The position numbers and the translations under genes are program-made. From Halovivax cerinus (lineage in GTDB: Archaea > Halobacteriota > Halobacteria > Halobacteriales > Natrialbaceae), in contig NZ_CP101824.1 of NCBI RefSeq assembly GCF_024498195.1, positions 310,001 to 374,000 of the forward strand: a stretch of DNA of 64,000 bases, written 5' to 3'. The notes beneath the pieces were generated by a model. It was given only the letters and a program-made list of their open reading frames with translations. It was not told the origin of the DNA and searched no databases. Shown one piece after another: positions 5,197 through 11,069 of this stretch (position 1 is its first letter; every line of letters starts with the position of its first letter).

Positions 5197-5267
5197 GCGC
5201 CGATGGTCCAGTGGTAGGACATTAGCTTCCCAAGCTAATAGCCCGGGTTCAATTCCCGGTCGGCGCA
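5197..5267 (+). tRNA. tRNA-Gly (anticodon CCC)
   Basis: A 71-base cloverleaf. The acceptor strands GCGCCGA (5197-5203) and TCGGCGC pair, with A5267 as discriminator. The anticodon stem is TTAGC/GCTAA with loop TTCCCAA, giving anticodon CCC for glycine codon GGG. The T arm is CCGGG TTCAATT CCCGG. The 3' CCA is not encoded. There is no intron. The 22 bases at the 3' end (5246-5267) recur three times downstream. Confidence 0.95.
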
Positions 5268-5625
5268 TCCTGCGAGGAACGGACGTGACGAGCGGATGCG
5301 CAATAAAGGGAATTGAACTACGGAAGACGCAGCGCGAACGGAGTGAGCGACCGTCTTCAGGTGGTTCAATTCCCGGTCGGCGCATACCGCCTCGAACGAA
5401 CGTGAGAGGCGTGTCTGCGCTACGAAGGGAATTGAATCAGACCAGTCGCAGCCCGCGCAGCGAAGCGAGCAGGACCGTCTGGGCGTGGTTCAATTCCCGG
5501 TCGGCGCATCCTGCGAGGAACGGACGTGACGAGCGGATGCGCAATAAAGGGAATTGAACTACGGAAGACGCAGCGCGAACGGAGTGAGCGACCGTCTTCA
5601 GGTGGTTCAATTCCCGGTCGGCACA
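5268..5625 (+). repeat. three tandem structured units, each ending in a copy of the tRNA-Gly 3' end
   Basis: Three consecutive units of 117, 124 and 117 bases follow the tRNA. Each ends with the 22-base T-arm/acceptor strand of tRNA-Gly (5363-5384, 5487-5508, 5604-5625; the last has one mismatch). Units 1 and 3 are almost identical, and unit 2 differs in sequence but keeps the same fold. Each unit contains GGGAATTGAA, which is the inverted complement of the T-arm copy at its end. Inside that pair is a second inverted repeat (GAAGACG/CGTCTTC in units 1 and 3, CAGAC/GTCTG in unit 2). No convincing protein is encoded. The short frames that contain RPGIEP peptides are translations of the tRNA-like end. 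Confidence 0.85.
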
Positions 5626-5832
5626 CGGTCGTGAGGAGCGACGGTGACGGGAACCGTCGCAATCGAGTGGTGAACGAATCGCTCGGCGGCGGCGAGTCGC
5701 GTTCGCCTCCGGCGCCGCGACCGGTGAGCGTGGCGGTCCCGGCGACGACGGGCGGCGTTCGCCGCCGCGTATCGACTGGTTCGTGCGGGTCGCTACCGGC
5801 CCTGTCGAGGGGCCGATCGAGCGGGGACGTAC
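5626..5832. other. intergenic, nothing recognised
   Basis: GC-rich sequence between the tRNA-linked repeats and the end of trm1. I see no gene, tRNA or repeat. It would hold the 3' end of the trm1 transcript, but no T-rich terminator is obvious. Confidence 0.4.
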
Positions 5833-7443: not shown

Positions 7444-7905
7444 TCACTCCGGAAGGCCAGAGATCCGTGAGAACTGTTCGTACGCGAGTTCGATCGTCTC
7501 GATCGCCATCCCCTGGTTGGTACTGACGAGGTCCGGACCGCGCCACATCGTCGGATAGGCGCGTTTGAACTCCCAGCCCCAGACGCGATCCCCCTTGAAA
7601 CCGTTCTGGAGCTTCACGACGACGTTCTTTCGGGTAACGTTCCCGCTCATGACATCCTGGATCCACTCCCAGAACCCGACGTCGGTCGTCATCCCGCGCT
7701 GTAACACGAGATCGGCGTGCGCGAAGGTCCCCGGAAGCGTGTGCACGTGATCGTTGACTCCCCCTTCACGGTACGTCACCGTCTCGAGTTGCATCGTGAT
7801 CCCCGAGACTTCGGCGAAGCCCGCGACGGACTCCCCGTCGACTTGTACCTCGAAGTTGTACTGCGAATAGGGGTTGTCGTCTGCCGTGTAGGGTTGGTCT
7901 GCCAT
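7444..7905 (-). CDS. contractile injection system tube protein (gp19-like), copy 2
   Basis: A 153-residue tail-tube protein of the T4 gp19/Afp1-Afp5 class. Typical features are the N-terminal NPYSQYNFEVQVDG strand, the FAEVSG turn, the YREGG motif with downstream PG, the LVLQRG strand, and the WEWIQD helix. It should form, or initiate, the rigid inner tube. It is the last gene of a minus-strand run (sheath, tube, small ORF, chaperone-like, DUF6760-like, this gene) and lies 36 bases after the preceding gene. It is related to but clearly diverged from the tube protein at 8854-9306. Confidence 0.92.
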   Translation of the reverse strand: MADQPYTADDNPYSQYNFEVQVDGESVAGFAEVSGITMQLETVTYREGGVNDHVHTLPGTFAHADLVLQRGMTTDVGFWEWIQDVMSGNVTRKNVVVKLQNGFKGDRVWGWEFKRAYPTMWRGPDLVSTNQGMAIETIELAYEQFSRISGLPE

Positions 7906-7941
7906 TGTGTTCGTCTCAGTAACCGCGTGCGGACCGGCCCG

Positions 7942-8208
7942 TCACTCCCCCTCGAACGAGTTCTGGAGGATGACTCCCTCGCCGGTACCGTCGATGAACG
8001 AACCCCGCGTCGACGCTGCGCCGCTGGAGTCGTCCGACCGTGCCACGTCGACGGGTTCGTTCATGCGTTCGTTGATCTCGCTAATCTCCTCACACCACCG
8101 GCGACGCTCCCAGTGCGGTAACGAGAGGACCGTCTCGTGGCTCCAGCCGAAGTGGTACGCCACGAACGCTACCTCTTCGAAGACCGTGTCTGGATCGGTC
8201 ACCCCCAT
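7942..8208 (-). CDS. small DUF6760-like injection-system protein
   Basis: An 88-residue protein. The first 50 residues (EEVAFVAYHFGWSHETVL..., then HWERRRWCEEI) match the small helical proteins, as I recall DUF6760, found in contractile-tail clusters beside tube and assembly genes. The C-terminal half is acidic/Ser-rich and probably disordered. The ATG at 8208 overlaps the stop of the upstream gene as TGATG. A GTG one codon earlier (8211) is an alternative. The tight overlap argues for translational coupling with the tail-assembly gene. Confidence 0.75.
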   Translation of the reverse strand: MGVTDPDTVFEEVAFVAYHFGWSHETVLSLPHWERRRWCEEISEINERMNEPVDVARSDDSSGAASTRGSFIDGTGEGVILQNSFEGE

Positions 8209-8693
8209 CACTCGCTCGCGTTTCCCGCTTCGACCTCCGCGGCACCGTCCAGATGGGCGTCTCCGTCGGCACCATCGCCGTCCGACTCTGCCGCTGCGGA
8301 ACCGTCCGGTGTCTCGACCAGCACCGCACCCGTCTCGACCTCGACGTCGAACCGCTCACCACAGTCGGGACAGGCCGTCACGACGGCGTTTCGGCCCCGA
8401 TTGTTGACCCGTTCGTACATCGACTGCAGGTACTCCAGATCGGCGACGAACAGGTTCTCGATGACGTCGGCGTCGACGGTCTCGAGCGTCCCCAGTTCGG
8501 TCACGACGCGGGCGAGCAAGGTGATCGTCAGGTACGAGGAGTTGGACTGGACCTGCGCGTCCGACAGCGGTCGAATCTCGTCGGCCGCCGTCGCGAGTCG
8601 CATACGCCCCTCCCGGTGGAGGGTGCCCTCGTCGTCGACGTATCCCTGTGGAAGGGTGAACTCGAACTCTGTCTGGAGTGTGTTGTCGGTCAT
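8208..8693 (-). CDS. tail-assembly chaperone-like protein with zinc-ribbon half
   Basis: A 161-residue protein. The N-terminal part (residues 1-100) resembles tail-assembly proteins of contractile systems: a FTLPQGYVD start, then a helical YLTITLLARVV and the FVADLEYLQSMY segment. A CPDCGERFDV knuckle follows near residue 108, suggesting metal binding by a dimer or partner. The tail is very acidic (Asp/Glu/Ala). It is coupled on both sides: its ATG overlaps the stop of the 55-residue gene (ATGA) and its stop overlaps the next start. Confidence 0.78.
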   Translation of the reverse strand: MTDNTLQTEFEFTLPQGYVDDEGTLHREGRMRLATAADEIRPLSDAQVQSNSSYLTITLLARVVTELGTLETVDADVIENLFVADLEYLQSMYERVNNRGRNAVVTACPDCGERFDVEVETGAVLVETPDGSAAAESDGDGADGDAHLDGAAEVEAGNASE

Positions 8694-8857
8694 GGATGGG
8701 TCCCCACGTAGGTAGCCGTCATCCGGACGGCGTTCGACTCGACGAACGAGCCACGCGTCCCGGTGTGAAGGTACCCGTCACCGTCGAGGCGCCACGTCCG
8801 GTCGAGACCGTGACGAGAGATGGCGAACGATCCGAGTGCCTCACGCGATCCGGTCAT
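8690..8857 (-). CDS. 55-residue coupled protein of the injection-system operon
   Basis: A short gene squeezed between the tube and assembly genes. Its ATG (8855-8857) overlaps the tube stop as ATGA, and its own TGA overlaps the next ATG in the same way. This double four-base overlap and an in-frame fit on both sides are the main evidence that it is translated. The protein is polar, with a GxLxRTWRLDGDGYLHTGTRGSF-like beta pattern, and has no motif I recognise. It may be a small tail or assembly component. Confidence 0.7.
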   Translation of the reverse strand: MTGSREALGSFAISRHGLDRTWRLDGDGYLHTGTRGSFVESNAVRMTATYVGTHP

Positions 8858-9306
8858 ACGTTTTTGCGCTTCATCTCCTCGAACTCGACGGTGTACGTTT
8901 CGACGGCGATGGCGTTCTGGCCACCGCCAGCCTGTGCGTTCAGCGTCGGCGGGTCGTACTTTCGGATCCAGGCGTTCGTGAACTCGAACCGGATGACCGA
9001 CGTTCCGGCCTGGTCCTTGAGGACGACGGCGATGTTCTTTCGCGCTTTTTCGCCGTCGCCCTCCTCGACCGCCTTTCGCCACTCGTCGAGACGTTTGTTG
9101 TCCTCTTCTGCACCGCGTGCGAGTACGAGTGGCGAGTACCGCGTGTCACCGAAGAGCTTGCGTGCGTGCTTGGCCTCGTCTCCTTCACGGTAGTCGAGCT
9201 GGTCGGTCTCCTGCGTGGGTAGCTGTACCTCGAGGAATCCAGGGACGTCGACGCCATCGAGTTCGACGGTGAATTCCGTACTTGGTAGCGGTCCGTGTTC
9301 TGGCAT
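8854..9306 (-). CDS. contractile injection system tube protein (gp19-like), copy 1
   Basis: A 150-residue gp19-class tube protein. It shows the FTVELDGVDVPGFLEVQLP entry strands, the DYREGDEAKH motif, LVLARG, a WRKAVEEG helix and a C-terminal VETYTVEFEE strand. It follows the sheath gene by 38 bases, the usual sheath-tube order, and is likely the main tube subunit. Its closest relative in the window is the protein at 7444-7905. Two tube paralogues are standard in Afp/PVC-type systems, where one caps or starts the tube. Confidence 0.93.
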   Translation of the reverse strand: MPEHGPLPSTEFTVELDGVDVPGFLEVQLPTQETDQLDYREGDEAKHARKLFGDTRYSPLVLARGAEEDNKRLDEWRKAVEEGDGEKARKNIAVVLKDQAGTSVIRFEFTNAWIRKYDPPTLNAQAGGGQNAIAVETYTVEFEEMKRKNV

Positions 9307-9344
9307 GTGTTATGGTACTGGTGGAAGTGGTTGCTGGTGGCTGT

Positions 9345-11069
9345 TCAGGCGTCGCCGGTGTCCTGGCTGATGCGGAAGATGACGAACTCGGCTGGCTTGA
9401 CCGGTGCGACGCCGATCTCGACGATGAGACGTCCATTGTCGATGTCGTCTTCGGTCATCGTCTCCTCGCCACAGCGGACGTAGAAGGCCTCGTCGGCCGT
9501 CGACCCCTGCAGGCCACCCTCACGCCAGACGGTCGTCAGGAAGTTCTCGACCGACTGCCGAATGCGCGCCCACAGGTCCTGGTCGTTCGGTTCGAAGACC
9601 GACCACTGCGTCCCCTCGTCGATGGACTGTTCGATGAACAGGAACAGGCGGCGGACGTTGAGATACTTCCACTCGGGATCGCTCGAGGTCGTCCGAGCAC
9701 CCCAGACACGGATGCCACGGCCCTGGAAGCTACGGATGCAGTTGATCCCCTTCGGGTTGAGGACGTCCTGTTCGCCCTTGGTGATGTCGTGCTGGAGACC
9801 GACGACACCCCGCACGGTCTCGTTCGCTGGCGCCTTGTGCACGCCGTGCTGGGCGTCGCTACGAGCGTAGATGCCGGCGATGTGACCACCCGGAGGCGCG
9901 AGTTTCTCGCGGTTGGTGACCGGGTCGAGAACGGAGAGCCACGGATAGTAGTAAGCAGCGTACGAAGAGTCGACGGGCGTCTCTATCTCCTGAACCGGAC
10001 CCGGGTTCTGCTCGGCCTGCAGGACGGCGAATCGGTCACCCATGTTCTCACAGTGAGCGACGATCGCGTCCGTCAGCCCCTGAACGTCGTTCTCGTCGGG
10101 GACGCAGACGATCGAGATGTCGTCGAGCGCCGTGAACGCTGCCAGACCGGTTCGCAAGCCGGGCTGGTCGATACCCTCGTAATCGGAGAGGGTCACGTCG
10201 CCCTCGGCGTCGGGCTTCGTCGGTTCCTCGGTGACGACCTCGACGTCGACGTCGACCTCGCCCGAACGGATATCGTCGAGTTGTGTGATGAGATCGTCCT
10301 TCGAGGGGTTGCCTTCCGTCTCGAACGGCCGAGCGATCCCCTTGAGGTCGTTGTACTTGAGGTCGTCGAGGTTGTCGGGGATGTAAACGACCGTCTCGTC
10401 CCCCTCCGTCTGTACGAGACCACCGTCGGCCGCTGCCGTCGGCGTGTTTCGGTGCAACCAGGTGAGACCGGGTACCGGTCGACCGTCCTCGACGTACTCG
10501 ACGTCGACGAGAACGGAGCTCGTGAGCTGTTTCTCGTAGAACTGGCTCGACTTCGGATCGGCGCTGAGGCCATCGAAGACCTCCTCGACGTCCGGCGCCG
10601 GTTCGGGCCGTGCCGATTCTGGCTGGCTGACTTCCTCGAGTTCACCCGACCAGTACCGCACGACGATGTCGAACTGGTCGCCTCGCTGACCGTCACGTAC
10701 GATGACGGCCACCGACGATCCCCAGGATCCTGGACCGTTCGCTTCGACGTTCATGACGTCCGTCTGGCCGTCGTCGACCAGGGACGCCACCGCGACGTCG
10801 TTCGGATCTGCCGTCGTGACGCGGCCGACGTAACAGCGCCCGCCGCCGTTCTTGAAGTACCCATCCAGCGCGACGTCGAGGTGAGAGTGCTTCGGGCTCG
10901 ACCCGTAGATGCGCTCGAACTCGGTGTAACTCGTGACGAGTTGGGGTTCGACCGGACCGCGGTGAGTCTGACCGAGGAAACCAGCCGTACTCGTACTGAC
11001 TCCTTCGACCGACTTGCTTCCACCGTTGACCTCTTCGACGTAGACGCCGGGGGCTTGATATTCTGGCAT
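9345..11069 (-). CDS. contractile tail sheath protein
   Basis: A 574-residue sheath protein of a phage-tail-like contractile injection system. The start YQAPGVYVEEV, the STAGFLGQTHRGP segment, the FTALDDISIVCVPD core and the C-terminal GRLIVEIGVAPVKPAEFVIFRI-type strand are hallmarks of the family (do not read the last phrase as an exact copy). Residues about 233-266 contain an insertion like a SAP/HeH/Rho-N helix-extension-helix (DDLKYNDLKGIAR, then SKDDLITQL). A strong Shine-Dalgarno GGAGGT lies eight bases upstream. An AT-rich promoter region precedes it. Confidence 0.95.
   Translation of the reverse strand: MPEYQAPGVYVEEVNGGSKSVEGVSTSTAGFLGQTHRGPVEPQLVTSYTEFERIYGSSPKHSHLDVALDGYFKNGGGRCYVGRVTTADPNDVAVASLVDDGQTDVMNVEANGPGSWGSSVAVIVRDGQRGDQFDIVVRYWSGELEEVSQPESARPEPAPDVEEVFDGLSADPKSSQFYEKQLTSSVLVDVEYVEDGRPVPGLTWLHRNTPTAAADGGLVQTEGDETVVYIPDNLDDLKYNDLKGIARPFETEGNPSKDDLITQLDDIRSGEVDVDVEVVTEEPTKPDAEGDVTLSDYEGIDQPGLRTGLAAFTALDDISIVCVPDENDVQGLTDAIVAHCENMGDRFAVLQAEQNPGPVQEIETPVDSSYAAYYYPWLSVLDPVTNREKLAPPGGHIAGIYARSDAQHGVHKAPANETVRGVVGLQHDITKGEQDVLNPKGINCIRSFQGRGIRVWGARTTSSDPEWKYLNVRRLFLFIEQSIDEGTQWSVFEPNDQDLWARIRQSVENFLTTVWREGGLQGSTADEAFYVRCGEETMTEDDIDNGRLIVEIGVAPVKPAEFVIFRISQDTGDA

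Follow-up and report, generated by a model that had tools for sequence, protein, structure and literature searches.

Structured units ending in a copy of the tRNA 3' end lie in tandem behind tRNA-Gly(CCC) of Halovivax cerinus and have relatives across the Halobacteria

RtT RNA of Escherichia coli is released from tRNA precursors, and a role for it has been proposed. In strain K-12, 178-nt tandem units follow tyrV; they end in AATCCTTCCCCCACCACCA, a copy of the 3' end of tRNA-Tyr, and contain GGGGAAGGAT, the complement of that tail copy. Judged by analogy, these tyrT/rttR repeats (RtT RNA, RF00391) are the closest known case to the array described here: the architecture is the same, with tandem units after a tRNA, a tail copy and a complementary strand, and there is no sequence homology. 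The E. coli repeats belong to one operon and one tRNA, carry a 19-nt copy that includes CCA, and have a longer unit, whereas the haloarchaeal units are class-wide, follow many tRNA isotypes and share modules. The RtT model has no match in the H. cerinus genome, and among the controls it matches only E. coli, so the relationship is one of likeness and not of membership. The haloarchaeal units are a phylogenetically broad parallel to the tyrT repeats and make the function of those repeats testable in genetically tractable haloarchaea.

The MITE, PATE and SMR repeats described in Haloquadratum (PMC3119063) are short, non-coding, palindromic and without a transposase, as the present units are. They are dispersed, however, whereas the units stay at tRNA 3' ends, each closing with a copy of the tRNA it follows, and covary in the manner of an RNA. 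Haloarchaeal proviruses and islands that target tRNA genes likewise duplicate the tRNA 3' end as a direct repeat, but they are kilobases long, carry an integrase and separate the tRNA from the unit.

The array behind tRNA-Gly(CCC)

The window is a 64,000-nt stretch of the H. cerinus genome. A first-pass annotation of it had described three tandem units of 117, 124 and 117 nt after a tRNA-Gly, each ending in the 22-base tail of that tRNA. This is confirmed, with one change in the copy that closes unit 3. The features, in window coordinates, are as follows.

5197-5267 (+): tRNA-Gly(CCC) (ARAGORN; Rfam RF00005, 73.7 bits)
5246-5267 (+): last 22 bases of tRNA-Gly(CCC), the source of the copied segment
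5268-5384 (+): unit 1, 117 nt (repeat search; fold -53.9 kcal/mol, z -5.5)
5270-5295 (+): hairpin P1 of unit 1, with tandem G-A positions (fold)
5308-5374 (+): core hairpin P2 of unit 1 (covariance model match G000:C1:315308-315374, E 2.4e-16)
5308-5321 and 5361-5374 (+): anti-T strand and T-arm strand of P2 in unit 1, with the inner stem between them
5363-5384 (+): copy in unit 1 of the tRNA T-arm/acceptor 3' strand to the discriminator base, 0 mismatches
5385-5508 (+): unit 2, 124 nt, with a P1 and an inner module both unlike those of unit 1
5386-5414 (+): hairpin P1 of unit 2 (fold)
5427-5498 (+): core hairpin P2 of unit 2 (covariance model match G000:C1:315427-315498, E 7.7e-17)
5427-5439 and 5486-5498 (+): anti-T strand and T-arm strand of P2 in unit 2
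5487-5508 (+): copy of the tRNA 3' end in unit 2, 0 mismatches
5509-5625 (+): unit 3, 117 nt, 99% identical to unit 1 (repeat search)
5549-5615 (+): core hairpin P2 of unit 3 (covariance model match G000:C1:315549-315615, E 2.4e-16)
5549-5562 and 5602-5615 (+): anti-T strand and T-arm strand of P2 in unit 3
5604-5625 (+): copy of the tRNA 3' end in unit 3, with one change (GGCACA for GGCGCA)

No gap separates the tRNA from unit 1. From 5' to 3' a unit consists of hairpin P1, a linker, the anti-T strand (GGGAATTGAA...), an inner hairpin and the 22-base tail copy GGTTCAATTCCCGGTCGGCGCA, which reproduces tRNA-Gly from immediately ahead of the T-loop through the discriminator base. The pairing strand GGGAATTGAA had been reported in every unit and is indeed found in all three, forming 14 bp with the tail copy in units 1 and 3 and 13 bp in unit 2. 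Folding z-scores against dinucleotide shuffles are -5.5 for unit 1 and -3.5 for unit 2. Because units 1 and 3 are so nearly identical, the window supplies only two independent units.

The inner stem was said to be kept although its sequence changes. Two inner modules do exist, but the stem given for unit 2, CAGAC/GTCTG, is better drawn as CCAG.CG/CG.CTGG, which is favoured both by the minimum-energy fold and by the family alignment. The outer stem GCGCATCC/GGATGCGC assigned to unit 1 needs correction: it would borrow the end of the preceding tRNA, and the hairpin within the unit is the shorter stem at 5270-5295. Hairpins with tandem G-A close to the tip (such as CGAACGNAGTGAG and GGTGACGGGAACC) also recur outside the units, at 5626-5660 of the window and in haloarchaeal intergenic DNA generally.

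The gene for the Trm1 tRNA methyltransferase (PF02005; 5833-7383, - strand) faces the array from the downstream side. Further on, the stretch 7444-11069 (-) encodes proteins of a tail tube (PF06841) and a tail sheath (PF04984, PF17482). This cluster resembles a contractile tail and may be an extracellular injection system or part of a provirus.

A family at tRNA 3' ends with a conserved fold

Relatives of the units were found at other tRNA genes of the same genome by DNA similarity search. Inspection of downstream regions revealed the same architecture after Gly, Glu, Lys, Arg, Val, Asp, Asn, Cys, Ile, Ala, Leu, Met, Ser and Thr tRNAs; the number of units behind a tRNA gene runs from one to five. 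Every clear unit ends in the T-loop-to-discriminator sequence of its own tRNA, and its complementary strand fits that tail. The general anatomy, over about 100-180 nt, is a P1 hairpin at the tRNA end, often opening with a run of T immediately 3' of the tRNA, followed by the anti-T strand, an inner hairpin with a few exchangeable internal-loop modules, and the T-loop-to-discriminator copy. Degenerate copies are common.

A covariance model of the core hairpin, R1, was built from 52 units; its E-values are rough. It has 42 matches at E < 0.001 in the H. cerinus genome, 39 of which have a same-strand tRNA no more than 700 nt upstream (chance expectation 0.15) and together cover 23 of the 41 tRNA genes. 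Insertion at many unrelated sites, as in a dispersed repeat of the MITE/PATE type, is not seen; the three remaining matches lie behind apparently displaced DNA, again on the same strand as the tRNA.

A covariance search of other haloarchaeal genomes had been proposed as a check, and with R1 it recovers the family in 190 of 194 Halobacteria genomes and in 62 of 65 genera. The number of units per genome ranges from 0 to more than 40; at most 17-25 candidates were scored per genome in the large genome samples, and counts from these are lower bounds. In a phylum-wide sample of 295 genomes, 51 have R1 matches, all of them in the order to which the window belongs and none outside it. Among the four Halobacteria genomes without strong R1 matches, two stay empty even when searched more sensitively, a third gives no more than very weak matches, and the fourth (G138, 1.9 Mb) has shorter units after Ile, Arg, Val, Ser and Leu tRNAs. 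The inner part of these mini-units (loci L324, L332, L333 and L334) is minimal, AGGGA...TGACCG.

An exact pattern was also scanned against 84,980 species genomes, and haloarchaea account for all 80 records among the matches listed. In named haloarchaeal loci a tRNA lies at most 690 nt upstream of 111 of 125 pattern matches, and 70 of these 111 have perfect tail copies; 10 of the 14 matches without an upstream tRNA are within about 600 nt of the end of the locus. Neither IMG/VR nor the phage collection contains a match, and matches in plasmid records are limited to two haloarchaeal megaplasmids. Comparison with Rfam 15, first at the gathering score and then with E relaxed to 1, gave nothing beyond the tRNA apart from chance matches located on it. 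The element is widespread and apparently undescribed, being absent from Rfam 15 and from the literature searched, a search that left subscription journals largely uncovered. It lies behind most tRNA genes in nearly every haloarchaeon and bears on archaeal tRNA 3'-end processing and termination, on how integrative elements locate tRNA genes, and on how a repeat tracks the sequence of the gene on which it sits.

Selection on an RNA or DNA structure had been inferred from the array alone. The support is thin on the two independent units of the window and is strongly borne out by the covariation and kept pairing of the family. Across the 52 units, changes on both sides occur in 16 of 24 pairs, and 91.1% of cells pair, against 79.9% in shuffled alignments and 19-52% in slid registers; the covariation score is reached by no shuffle. 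In a second set, 133 units taken from named haloarchaea, 91.7% of cells are paired and 16 of 24 pairs again have both-side changes, but this set was chosen by pattern and fitted to the model and thus leans towards it. The anti-T strand fits the T copy of its own unit better than other copies (1361 versus 1226 +/- 8, 0 of 2000 permutations). With these results the structure of the family, like its distribution, is well shown.

G-U pairs outnumber A-C mismatches by 60 to 11 in the first set (A1), and by 32 to 10 in that set when the two G-U-rich positions next to the T-loop are left out; the inner helices of the second set (A2) have 18 G-U pairs and no A-C mismatch. The unit sequences are related, and the pair and mismatch counts are not independent. 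The excess of G-U indicates that the fold is kept as RNA or as single-stranded DNA of the tRNA-sense strand, and RNA appears likelier than double-stranded DNA as the selected form, a preference derived from sequence comparison alone. Certain positions are conserved as non-pairs, namely a U.U in 32 of 52 units, tandem G-A near the tips, and a CAG/AC loop.

Turnover at the tRNA end and its possible causes

Three congeneric species (H. cerinus, G000, and its relatives G038 and G057) differ in which tRNAs bear units and in the number of units. None of the three has adjacent units at the His, Tyr, Ser-GCT, initiator Met or rRNA-operon Ala-TGC tRNAs; for Tyr, G000 and G057 have units about 18 kb downstream. 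At Ala-CGC the flank of a sister species follows the tRNA directly, with 81.6% identity from the first base, and in H. cerinus one 150-nt unit stands between the tRNA and this flank. A similar empty site is found at Leu-CAA. Such precise sites imply that units are either gained or lost right at the tRNA end; an empty site may thus reflect a deletion as well as a lack of insertion.

For only 9 of 36 cores is the closest relative found behind the corresponding tRNA of a sister species. The Glu-CTC core of H. cerinus is identical (43/43 nt) to a Gly-GCC core of a sister species, although the T-loops of these two tRNAs differ and the anti-T strand matches the local tRNA in each case. Inner modules are thus exchanged between different tRNA genes, whether by gene conversion among units already in place or by genuine spread to tRNAs that had none.

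The function of the units and their mode of spread are inferred. The explanation we prefer, and are as ready to doubt as to believe, is that of a non-autonomous tRNA-bound repeat which is transcribed in the tRNA trailer, is copied between tRNA genes via the T-loop and multiplies in tandem; there are no transcript data. The array would be transcribed as the trailer of the tRNA precursor and removed by cleavage at the tRNA 3' end; within this trailer, each false T-arm copy would be locked in a hairpin by the complementary strand. Copying would carry a unit from one tRNA gene to the next and would re-enter the recipient tRNA at its near-invariant T-loop (GGTTCRAAT). Because copying would re-enter at the conserved T-loop, the copy would start there and end with the acceptor strand of the recipient. 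Units may then multiply in tandem and be lost precisely by recombination between the 20-nt copies.

To our knowledge no enzyme copies such units. Predicted minimum-energy folds of a tRNA together with a unit give no support for the false copy being fully locked away: the tRNA is often disturbed, and part of its acceptor strand is captured with or without the tail copy. Complementarity between the P1/anti-T region and the acceptor strand is weak and exceeds that of shuffles only modestly. The conserved loops (3x2, 2x2 and 1x1) look unlike the two 3-nt bulges around 4 bp that form the bulge-helix-bulge substrate of the splicing endonuclease. The accessible part of a Haloferax volcanii study does not mention such trailers.

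A trailer RNA that serves the host, whether as a fail-safe terminator, as an aid to tRNA 3' processing or as a stable small RNA released from tRNA precursors, in the manner suggested for RtT RNA of E. coli, remains a tentative alternative of some weight. The near-universal presence of the units could equally mean a host function, and a use to the host is favoured because they are near-universal in the class and keep their fold. The structure of the sense strand with its conserved mismatches, the T-run of P1 that often lies directly after the tRNA, and the mini-units that follow tRNAs even in the small-genome member point the same way. A tolerated repeat is favoured because presence varies and copies decay: species of one genus differ in whether a given tRNA has units, degenerate copies are common, and genomes hold anything from no unit to more than 40. 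For a terminator in particular, no sign was found, since neither the orientation nor the distance of the next gene differs between tRNAs with and without units.

It is also conceivable, but in our judgement unlikely, that the units are a mobile element of the whole class which uses the T-loop as its homing site and passes between tRNA genes as folded RNA or as single-stranded DNA of the sense strand, renewing its tail copy and complementary strand at each new site and so never damaging the host tRNA.

We find little reason to regard the units as a neutral by-product, in which slippage or template switching would duplicate the tRNA tail and quasi-palindrome correction would keep the arms complementary without selection. 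The close match of the arms over the T-loop, the tandem copies and the precise loss are all compatible with such a process. Correction would, however, also remove the mismatches that are conserved (U.U, tandem G-A and CAG/AC), which argues against mere palindrome correction, and it would not favour G-U over A-C on one strand. In addition, the P1 and inner modules common to different tRNAs need a shared origin.

Displaced units and integrative elements

The three outlying R1 matches lie 11, 18 and 51 kb downstream of the Thr-CGT, Tyr and Phe tRNAs, respectively, and share their strand. Directly ahead of each stands a 3' fragment of exactly that tRNA (22 nt for Thr, 15 nt for Phe and ~13 nt for Tyr), and a tyrosine integrase (PF00589) adjoins the Thr fragment. 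The simplest reading is that tRNA-targeting elements were inserted between the tRNA and the unit; an integrase was identified for Thr, and none was sought or found for Phe and Tyr. Since the element lies between tRNA and unit, the unit is a resident of the tRNA 3' flank and not the scar of such an element.

The tRNA-tail segment copied in the units is a usual attachment core of integrative elements. The tail copies might be decoy attachment sites that divert virus and plasmid integrases from the tRNA gene, and integrative elements do target these tRNAs. This explanation is very improbable: the genuine tRNA was used in the traced insertions, where the element lies between tRNA and unit, and a bare copy would suffice as a decoy, so that the covarying hairpin is left unexplained.

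That the repeats are scars or miniature elements of serial tyrosine-recombinase integration, as the first-pass annotation had also suggested, is scarcely credible, for although direct repeats of the tRNA 3' end bound short segments and an integrase lies next to one displaced unit, the units themselves contain no integrase and at about 100-180 nt have no room for its gene, no unit occurs in the viral or phage collections, the elements sit between tRNA and unit, a unit arriving from another tRNA would swap the acceptor strand and break the tRNA, and the conserved structure would remain unexplained.

In H. cerinus the integrative element in tRNA-Thr(CGT) is ~11 kb long (C1:2522400-2534500, L318) and has its integrase beside the displaced tRNA fragment and unit; it also holds a large N-6 methylase/restriction-like ORF. 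The intervals of the other displacements are C1:1782861-1834251 for tRNA-Phe (51 kb) and C1:2067349-2085689 for tRNA-Tyr (18 kb). At the latter, the flank behind the displaced unit resembles the flank that now lies directly behind the tRNA.
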